IMG/VR virus record: IMGVR_UViG_3300030061_003669
Location: 1 to 23,593 of that record
Length of the DNA: 23,593 nt
From: a virus
Strand: one strand, 5' to 3'
Below, piece after piece: positions 4,998 through 5,699 of this stretch. The position numbers and the translations under genes were made by a program. The notes beneath the pieces are model-generated. The model was given only the letters and a program-made list of their open reading frames with translations. It made no database searches and was not told where the DNA came from. Numbering within the stretch: the stretch's first letter is position 1; each line of letters begins with the position of its first letter.

Positions 4998-5217
4998 CGG
5001 TAGTCAAGAGTGTGAAAGGGCTGGTATGCTTTTGAAAAGTATTCACGAAGATTTTCATGAATACTTTTTGGATAAGGACTTTACAGATACACAATTCCAT
5101 GCAGAGTTTGGTGGCAATGCAGAGTATCCACAAATCTCTATTGGACTTAAGCATCGTGGTGGTCTCAAAGAGACTTTGCATTATTTGAATAACCACAATT
5201 ATAAATGTTCGTGTTGA
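4975..5217 (+). CDS. Degenerate glutaredoxin-like protein
   Basis: The product has 80 residues with the glutaredoxin outline: a beta-strand start (AVIYSNG), a position equivalent to CPYC that reads SQEC (S10, C13), a cis-proline EYP (P52) in place of TFP, and GGLKET (62-67) in place of GGCTET. The spacing matches the nearby true glutaredoxin at 2366-2602 almost residue for residue. The first catalytic Cys is lost while the second is kept, the reverse of ordinary monothiol glutaredoxins. An extra CSC sits at the C-terminus (C78, C80). It may bind glutathione or a partner without normal dithiol exchange. Confidence 0.65.
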   Translation: MQAVIYSNGSQECERAGMLLKSIHEDFHEYFLDKDFTDTQFHAEFGGNAEYPQISIGLKHRGGLKETLHYLNNHNYKCSC

Positions 5218-5228
5218 TACCAAGACAC

Positions 5229-5257
5229 TTGACTAAATAAGATATGAGGTCTATAAT
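5229..5257 (+). promoter_or_regulatory. Sigma70-like promoter of the riboswitch unit
   Basis: TTGACT (5229-5234) and a perfect TATAAT (5252-5257) are separated by 17 bases, nearly ideal for host housekeeping RNA polymerase. The predicted start, near 5264, falls at the first bases of the riboswitch. Confidence 0.75.
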
Positions 5258-5264
5258 AAGACCT
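5247..5264 (+). repeat. Inverted repeat centred on the -10 box
   Basis: The perfect 6-bp arms AGGTCT and AGACCT surround a 6-base centre. The TATAAT box lies across the left arm and centre, so a protein bound here would block the promoter. It may be an operator. Confidence 0.45.
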
Positions 5265-5324
5265 GACGTTCATCCCGCTCTAGGGTGGGACGCAAGTAAG
5301 TCGCGGAACGGAGCCGTTCATCCC
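5265..5324 (+). promoter_or_regulatory. Glutamine riboswitch, Downstream-peptide / glnA type
   Basis: The RNA fits the glutamine-binding aptamer class known from cyanobacteria. P1 pairs CGTTC (5267-5271) with GAACG (5306-5310). An inner stem can pair TCCC (5273-5276) with GGGA (5287-5290). The conserved ACGCAAGTAAGTC segment (5290-5302) corresponds to the E-loop region. A pseudoknot joins loop GCTC (5277-5280) to GAGC (5311-5314). The GGAG at 5310-5313, the only Shine-Dalgarno-like sequence before ATG 5325, lies in P1 and the pseudoknot, so ligand binding should lower translation. A second copy of CGTTCATCCC abuts the ATG. The motif call is from memory of the family's consensus; covariance-model scoring was not possible. 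Confidence 0.82.
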
Positions 5325-5489
5325 ATGATTGATTTTCTCTTATATTCATCCCTCAGTTGTTCTGATGCCGATGCAATTATGCTACGGATGAAGAACCACG
5401 AAGATCTTAGCAATCAAGTTAAGATTGAATTGGTAGAGGCCATTAAGGAATCTACCCCTGAGTGCTATCCATGGGACGCAAACGACTAA
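5325..5489 (+). CDS. Riboswitch-controlled small peptide (Downstream-peptide ORF)
   Basis: The product is a 54-residue acidic peptide. The ATG at 5325 was chosen because the frame's earlier ATG (5244) lies upstream of the predicted transcription start and the intervening bases form the riboswitch. The sequence begins MIDFLLYSSLSCSDADAIM and ends CYPWDAND, a pattern I associate with small conserved proteins of marine cyanobacteria and their phages. It has two cysteines and a predicted helix in the middle. It probably reports or acts on nitrogen status, given control by a glutamine aptamer, but its function is unknown. The DUF4278-like peptide follows on the same transcript. Confidence 0.75.
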   Translation: MIDFLLYSSLSCSDADAIMLRMKNHEDLSNQVKIELVEAIKESTPECYPWDAND

Positions 5490-5531
5490 AGGAACGGACC
5501 TAAAAATCCAACTACTTTAGGAGTACCTACA

Positions 5532-5699
5532 ATGAACACACTAAACATGATCAAGAAGCAGATCAACAAAGCATCTGCTATTCATGACGCACAGATTTCT
5601 CACACCTCATATCGTGGTGTTGAGTATTCTACTCGTTGTGTAGAAAGCAAAGAGTCTCACGGAACTTTCTGCTATCGCGGACAAACTTACACCAAGTGA
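5532..5699 (+). CDS. Small DUF4278-like protein
   Basis: The product has 55 residues, beginning MNTLNMIKKQINKAS. Two copies of the YRG signature (TSYRGVEYS near residue 28 and CYRGQTYTK at the C-terminus) match the cyanobacterial DUF4278 pattern of a repeated YRG-x-Y strand. A clear AGGAG (5519-5523) supports the ATG. It lies between the riboswitch peptide and a strong terminator, so it is the last gene of that short unit. No function is known. The gene is probably host-derived. Confidence 0.7.
   Translation: MNTLNMIKKQINKASAIHDAQISHTSYRGVEYSTRCVESKESHGTFCYRGQTYTK

Follow-up and report, generated by a model that had tools for sequence, protein, structure and literature searches.

The window analysed here, a 23,593-nucleotide stretch of viral DNA (IMG/VR record IMGVR_UViG_3300030061_003669), carries the sequence CGTTCATCCC twice on the plus strand, at 5267-5276 and at 5315-5324, and the second copy lies directly against an ATG (5325-5327). 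The first copy belongs to a sequence of the glutamine aptamer type, and the question raised by the locus is what the second copy does. A preliminary description of this DNA had recognised a glutamine-type aptamer sequence, which the present comparison supports. It had proposed a switch in which the second copy displaces the first on a single GAACG, while the bases GAGC change between a pseudoknot and a tetraloop. That interpretation is partly supported by the results below. On the evidence of the sequences compared here, the repeated CGTTCATCCC is half of a second core of the glutamine-sensor type which is folded within the first.

Pairing of the repeated strands

Four strands of the leader have to be assigned to each other, CGTTC at 5267, GAACG at 5306, CGTTC at 5315 and GAACG at 5492, and they can be paired either in tandem (1-2, 3-4) or in a nested manner (1-4, 2-3). 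Numerous viral contigs carry, after the second CGTTCATCCC, a short hairpin and GGGACGCAAACGACTAAAGGAACGG in that order; in the window this matching 3' half is located at 5473-5497, past a 54-aa ORF. Under nested pairing, the first copy (CGUUC, 5267-5271) forms the outer P1 with GAACG 5492-5496, and the second (CGUUC, 5315-5319) forms the inner P1' with GAACG 5306-5310. Glutamine aptamers contain a long-range pair, numbered 19:41 in PMC6698751, that adjoins the ligand. It must sit inside one core and was therefore used to discriminate between the two arrangements. In the nested form these pairs are C5293 (19a) with G5497 (41b) for the outer core and C5479 (19b) with G5311 (41a) for the inner one.

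The pairs were counted in 184 distinct elements, of which 115 have an ORF and 69 are compact; the count ignores relatedness and its weight lies in the joint swapping of the two bases, not in the numbers. The outer 19:41 pair was intact in 184/184 under nested pairing, as C:G in 108 and as G:C in 76, and on a tree made from the other columns (a weak one, the sequences being short) it changed at least three times. The inner pair was intact in 94% and broken in 6% of the relatives, and its flips comprised three G:C and two G:U. Under tandem pairing only 61% and 58% of the two pairs were intact. The 40-sequence alignment of the compact forms gave 40/40 and 92.5% for the nested arrangement as compared with 47.5% and 45% for the tandem one. 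In the same alignment 94.4% of the cells were paired in the nested structure, 125 were changed on both sides and the covariation was 0.295, while slid controls of the structure all scored far lower. RNAalifold, run without a supplied structure, returned the nested P1 and P1' topology. The use of ATGGGACG as the inner core gave false inner G:G pairs and was discarded.

Since the bases of P1 and P1' are near-invariant, the evidence for their pairing comes mainly from 19:41, P3 and P2'. All four pairs of the outer P2 hairpin (5273-5290, UCCC..GGGA, with a short loop in the window) were 100% paired in the 40-sequence alignment and showed compensatory changes. P3 is formed by AGUCG (5299-5303) and CGACU (5483-5487); its pairs 1, 2, 4 and 5 are kept in 98-100%, with compensatory changes, and roughly half of the relatives have a C.A mismatch at position 3. 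Pairing is retained in the variants AGUCA/UGACU and AGUUG/CAACU and in longer, 8-bp forms. The inner P2' (UCCCAUG 5321-5327 with CAUGGGA 5470-5476 in the window) links both ends of the ORF and contains its start codon. Among the 115 ORF-type elements its first five pairs were kept in 91-100%, as C-G, U-A or A-U across the ORF; the combination of the outer 5' strand with the inner 3' strand reached 77% and 76% where the positions are informative. The nested fold and the P2' stem spanning the ORF are shown by this covariation. In long-form P3 helices, for example in locus L094, both strands read AGCCGACU, which is self-pairing with symmetric C.A and A.C mismatches, the pattern expected from the duplication of one half.

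A tandem of two ordinary glutamine aptamers, with the first copy pairing with GAACG 5306-5310, the second with GAACG 5492-5496 and the ORF lying in the P2 of the second aptamer, would agree with the two weak head-to-tail matches that Rfam gives for compact forms. Genuine tandem glnA aptamers do occur in one phage locus, and in the window the calculated energy of this pairing, -72.6 kcal/mol, is near the -73.1 of the full nested fold. However, it would leave 19:41 broken in about 40% of the relatives, where nested pairing breaks none of the outer and 6% of the inner pairs, and only nested pairing joins AGUA to RAAG around the covarying P3. Tandem aptamers are thus very improbable here.

The hairpin formed by the second copy

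The preliminary description had noted that GAACG 5306-5310 and CGTTC 5315-5319 can form a hairpin with the loop GAGC (5311-5314). This pairing is present in 184/184 distinct relatives parsed, and it evidently did not arise by chance. The single compensatory case is L040, where the hairpin reads GCAACG..CGTTG and the first copy is unaltered. When the full RNA (5262-5536) was folded, the pairing probability was 0.97 for the hairpin and 0.02 for the alternative in which this GAACG pairs with the first copy. In the isolated short leader the two compete (0.53 vs 0.36), which is the origin of the competing pairings proposed earlier. Leader-only folding proved a misleading guide because the partner strands are past the ORF. 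As the partner of the first copy in the selected fold is the GAACG beyond the ORF, the hairpin is a constant structural part.

A strand-swap switch, in which the second copy would take GAACG from the first and GAGC would pass from pseudoknot to tetraloop, draws on this competition, and a transient pairing during transcription is conceivable, but it is highly unlikely since by 19:41 covariation the partner of the first copy is the distal GAACG, the GCTC:GAGC pseudoknot is not conserved and is impossible with the P2 loops of many relatives (UUCG or GAAA-type), and the loops of compact relatives are GAT, GAA or GGT. Covariation between the two copies, which the earlier proposal had named as a check, was not found either: their ATCCC parts vary with their own 3' partners and not with each other.

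Comparison with known riboswitches

No Rfam family matched the window at its gathering threshold. The cmscan scores were 22.4 bits for glutamine-I (threshold 35) and 22.4 bits for glutamine-II (threshold 33), and the halves of the compact element L121 reached 33.1 and 22.1 bits against RF01739 (threshold 35), so that neither of them passes. The sub-threshold RF01739 score is explained by the inability of the linear model to span the insert.

With the glutamine-I (glnA) family, RF01739, the element shares P1 (CGUUC/GAACG), the P2 hairpin, the E-loop (AAGUA/RAAG), P3, the long-range 19:41 pair and a downstream gene of the DUF4278 type. CGUUCA and GAACG are invariant and are followed by the P2 hairpin. 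AAGUA (5294-5298 in the window, invariant in the alignment) and RAAGG (AAAG at 5488-5491 being the 3' side of the E-loop) flank the covarying P3, only when the halves are joined across the ORF. In contrast to RF01739, P3 is here capped by a second, permuted core, one or two ORFs interrupt the element, and C:G occurs besides G:C at 19:41. The glutamine-II (Downstream-peptide) family, RF01704, has the same binding-core bases and also precedes short ORFs, and its C19:G41 is as in the window. The consensus fold contains no P2 helix of the RF01704 kind, in which GAACG lies in the loop and pairs with CGUUC as a pseudoknot; when the window was aligned to RF01704, P2 contained gaps and four non-standard pairs.

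Tandem glnA aptamers (Weinberg et al. 2010, PMC2864571) resemble the element in having two glutamine cores per leader, but they stand head to tail with a P3 of their own each, while in the window the halves share the P3 strands and one P1 lies within the other. In locus L113 (3193-3302, minus strand) two such canonical head-to-tail aptamers, each with its own P3, stand before a small gene. The nested form may have descended from a tandem of this kind by exchange of P3 strands.

Taken as a whole, the element is probably a twin phage glutamine riboswitch, composed of an outer aptamer of the glutamine-I type and a circularly permuted second core that caps its P3. Its ends would form the outer aptamer, with P1, P2, E-loop and P3. 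The second core would be built on P3 from P1', closed by a loop of 3-4 nt, the hairpin P2' and a 19:41 pair of its own, in a back-to-back arrangement with the first. Group I introns are known to have genes placed in their peripheral loops. They likewise have reading frames in the hairpin loops of a structured RNA (the element of phage Sf-CH5 even with a homing endonuclease), but the present element would be a ligand sensor without catalysis or splicing, and start and stop codons lie inside its helices.

Genes inside the element

The nested ORF (5325-5489, 54 aa) belongs to phrog_504 (E=9e-28) and sits within P2'; its stop codon UAA (5487-5489) is at the P3/E-loop junction, the last base of the P3 3' strand being the first of the stop. 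The stop is found at the same place in 112/113 relatives (CGAC-TAA/TGA-AGG). The median dN/dS of the ORF, with the RNA-constrained ends excluded, was 0.25, and this coding sequence is under selection at the protein level. AlphaFold2 predicted two helices (residues 12-24 and 30-43) with moderate confidence (pLDDT 76); Cys 12 and Cys 47 are invariant among 50 proteins. A Pfam search with the nested ORFs tested gave nothing significant.

The P2' slot can also be occupied by other families, e.g. phrog_13397, and in 28 relatives the outer P2 carries an ORF, phrog_6471 included, and here too the stem contains the start codon. Among 217 distinct elements an ORF was present in P2' only in 118, in P2 only in 13, in both in 15 and in neither in 71. 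The element of phage Sf-CH5 (L553, 940-1960) has ORFs in both the outer P2 and the inner P2' and, near the inner P1' loop, a gene annotated as a homing endonuclease.

The earlier suggestion that Shine-Dalgarno bases lie in the hairpin loop is supported: GGAG (5310-5313), which includes position 41a, is likely the Shine-Dalgarno sequence of the nested ORF. The GAG inner loop, which yields GGAG, follows the presence of the ORF, occurring in the 41b=G group in 68/85 ORF-bearing elements versus 0/23 ORF-less ones (not corrected for relatedness); GGAG is absent from the loop in 17/85 ORF elements of this group and in all 30 of the other.

Downstream gene and proposed regulation

The gene following the element (5532-5699, 55 aa) belongs to phrog_545 (E=7.5e-36). 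Its match to DUF4278 (PF14105) is just below the Pfam cut-off in the window (E=7.5e-5) and above it in locus L169, and a motif of the YRG type (Y[RK]G) was found in 172/175 of the downstream proteins. DUF4278 is the N-terminal part of IF17, a glutamine synthetase inactivating factor, and IF17-type DUF4278 genes are activated by both glutamine-I and glutamine-II riboswitches (PMC6316151). The DUF4278-type protein would thus be a plausible phage handle on the host glutamine synthetase.

The Shine-Dalgarno region of this gene, CUUUAGGAG (5515-5523), contains CUUUAG (5515-5520), which can pair with CUAAAG (5486-5491), made up of the end of P3 and the E-loop. This pairing is a perfect 6-bp one in 82/108 elements, and the version CUGAAG/CUUCAG, which exchanges A-U for G-C, was found in 18; in the 41b=C group CUCUUUA pairs with UAAGGAG from 41b on in 66/76. 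The anti-Shine-Dalgarno pairing is thereby supported by covariation. The ligand-free energy minimum of 5262-5536, at -76.1 kcal/mol, contains P1', P2' and the anti-Shine-Dalgarno stem, and the full nested fold lies about 3 kcal/mol above it, a calculated gap that could be closed by the ligand.

Since the anti-Shine-Dalgarno pairing covaries and its stem is part of the ligand-free minimum, the downstream gene is suggested to be turned on by glutamine. In the mechanism proposed, CUAAAG would pair with the downstream Shine-Dalgarno region in the absence of glutamine and the DUF4278 gene would be off; glutamine would stabilise the outer aptamer, sequester CUAAAG and release the site, giving the same ON logic as in known glutamine riboswitches. 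The nested gene would be built into P2' with its AUG in the stem, its Shine-Dalgarno sequence overlapping bases 40 and 41 of the inner core and its stop at P3/E-loop. As GGAG contains these two core bases, binding of glutamine by the inner core is expected to mask it, and with GGAG and AUG tied up the nested gene would be off. Against this part of the mechanism, P2' is already present in the ligand-free minimum. The directions of both switches and the roles of the proteins are predictions. A more far-reaching reading, which we hold at slightly less than even chance, is a two-ligand sensor with a normal and a permuted aptamer on one helix, housing one or two small phage genes whose start and stop codons belong to the aptamer structure, and exerting opposite glutamine control on the genes inside and on the glutamine synthetase inactivator-like gene downstream.

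Translational coupling could replace most of this regulation, the ORF being translated constantly, its termination opening the downstream Shine-Dalgarno site and glutamine acting as a minor modulator. The position of the stop codon would allow it, because UAA lies inside the anti-Shine-Dalgarno strand and a terminating ribosome would free the site. However, the 71/217 relatives without an ORF keep the element, and the compact, ORF-less loci retain the downstream gene, which makes coupling an unlikely explanation.

A stronger contender, still on the unlikely side, accepts the fold and has glutamine bound by the outer core only, the inner one serving as a structural extension of P3 that positions or silences the nested gene. 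The inner core does lack the AGUA/GAA E-loop, and its 19:41 pair is the one broken in 6%. On the other hand, this pair flips jointly, and the inner core retains CGUUCA, ACGN and GGAACGN, the glutamine-contacting bases in both known classes (PMC6698751). Binding by either core and the number of ligands are, for the twin riboswitch preferred here, predictions drawn from sequence.

Distribution and significance

A blast search with 5200-5500 gave 437 phage records at E values up to 10 and 429 at 0.01, nearly all of them Synechococcus and Prochlorococcus phages. The window itself carries T4-like cyanophage genes, and the neighbourhood (nrdB, a thioredoxin-like gene, the phrog_504 ORF, the DUF4278-type gene and talC) is partly annotated in Kyanoviridae, for instance Syn33 and P-RSM4. 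The element occurs in viruses of marine and freshwater cyanobacteria, many of them T4-like cyanophages. Whole-record searches of eight phage genomes found a single element in six; P-RSM4 and Sf-CH5 have divergent forms that the pattern missed. A loose pattern scan of bacterial genomes was abandoned, its matches being mostly chance. A tighter pattern gave one match in 300 genomes of one cyanobacterial family, on a contig of a single-cell assembly, and the element was therefore treated as phage-borne. Little was gained from a scan for inner-hairpin variants with GAACH. The contig L545 / L563 (NZ_RMVE01000006.1, 188 kb), filed as Nonlabens xiamenensis, also has a nested element of the cyanophage type, including the beginning of an ORF; the size of the contig would suit a contaminating cyanophage genome.

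Phage glutamine riboswitches are already known (PMC9004378), and a 99-nt glnA match has been reported in S-CREM1 (PMC9964418). The papers searched yielded neither a description of a nested permuted pair nor one of genes placed in the hairpins of an aptamer. If the twin-riboswitch model is right, a normal aptamer with a permuted one nested inside it would be, as far as this literature goes, a new riboswitch architecture, in which coding sequences were inserted into aptamer hairpins and the aptamers were not destroyed; phrog_504 and phrog_6471, two families of unexplained short phage proteins, would become residents of a nitrogen sensor. It would also show why such elements are overlooked or misinterpreted in standard searches for RNA families. 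It becomes a testable question whether cyanophages sense the glutamine of the host and tune its glutamine synthetase through the DUF4278 protein.

Flanking sequences

About a dozen loci (L041, L042, L015, L045, L088, L120, L142 and L163 among them) carry an additional conserved motif, ACGGATCC, a hairpin and GAGAAGGTTAATTTTCACCC, between the riboswitch and the downstream gene, which is without an Rfam match. Just 5' of P1, the window contains a palindrome at 5247-5263 (AGGTCT..AGACCT) with a central TATAAT. In the 40 bases before P1 of the relatives its arms co-vary (AGGTC/GACCT, ATGGTAT/ATACCAT, TGTGTTA/TAACACA) and have a mean length of 5.7, versus 4.3 in shuffles. The palindrome may be a promoter, an operator or an RNA hairpin.
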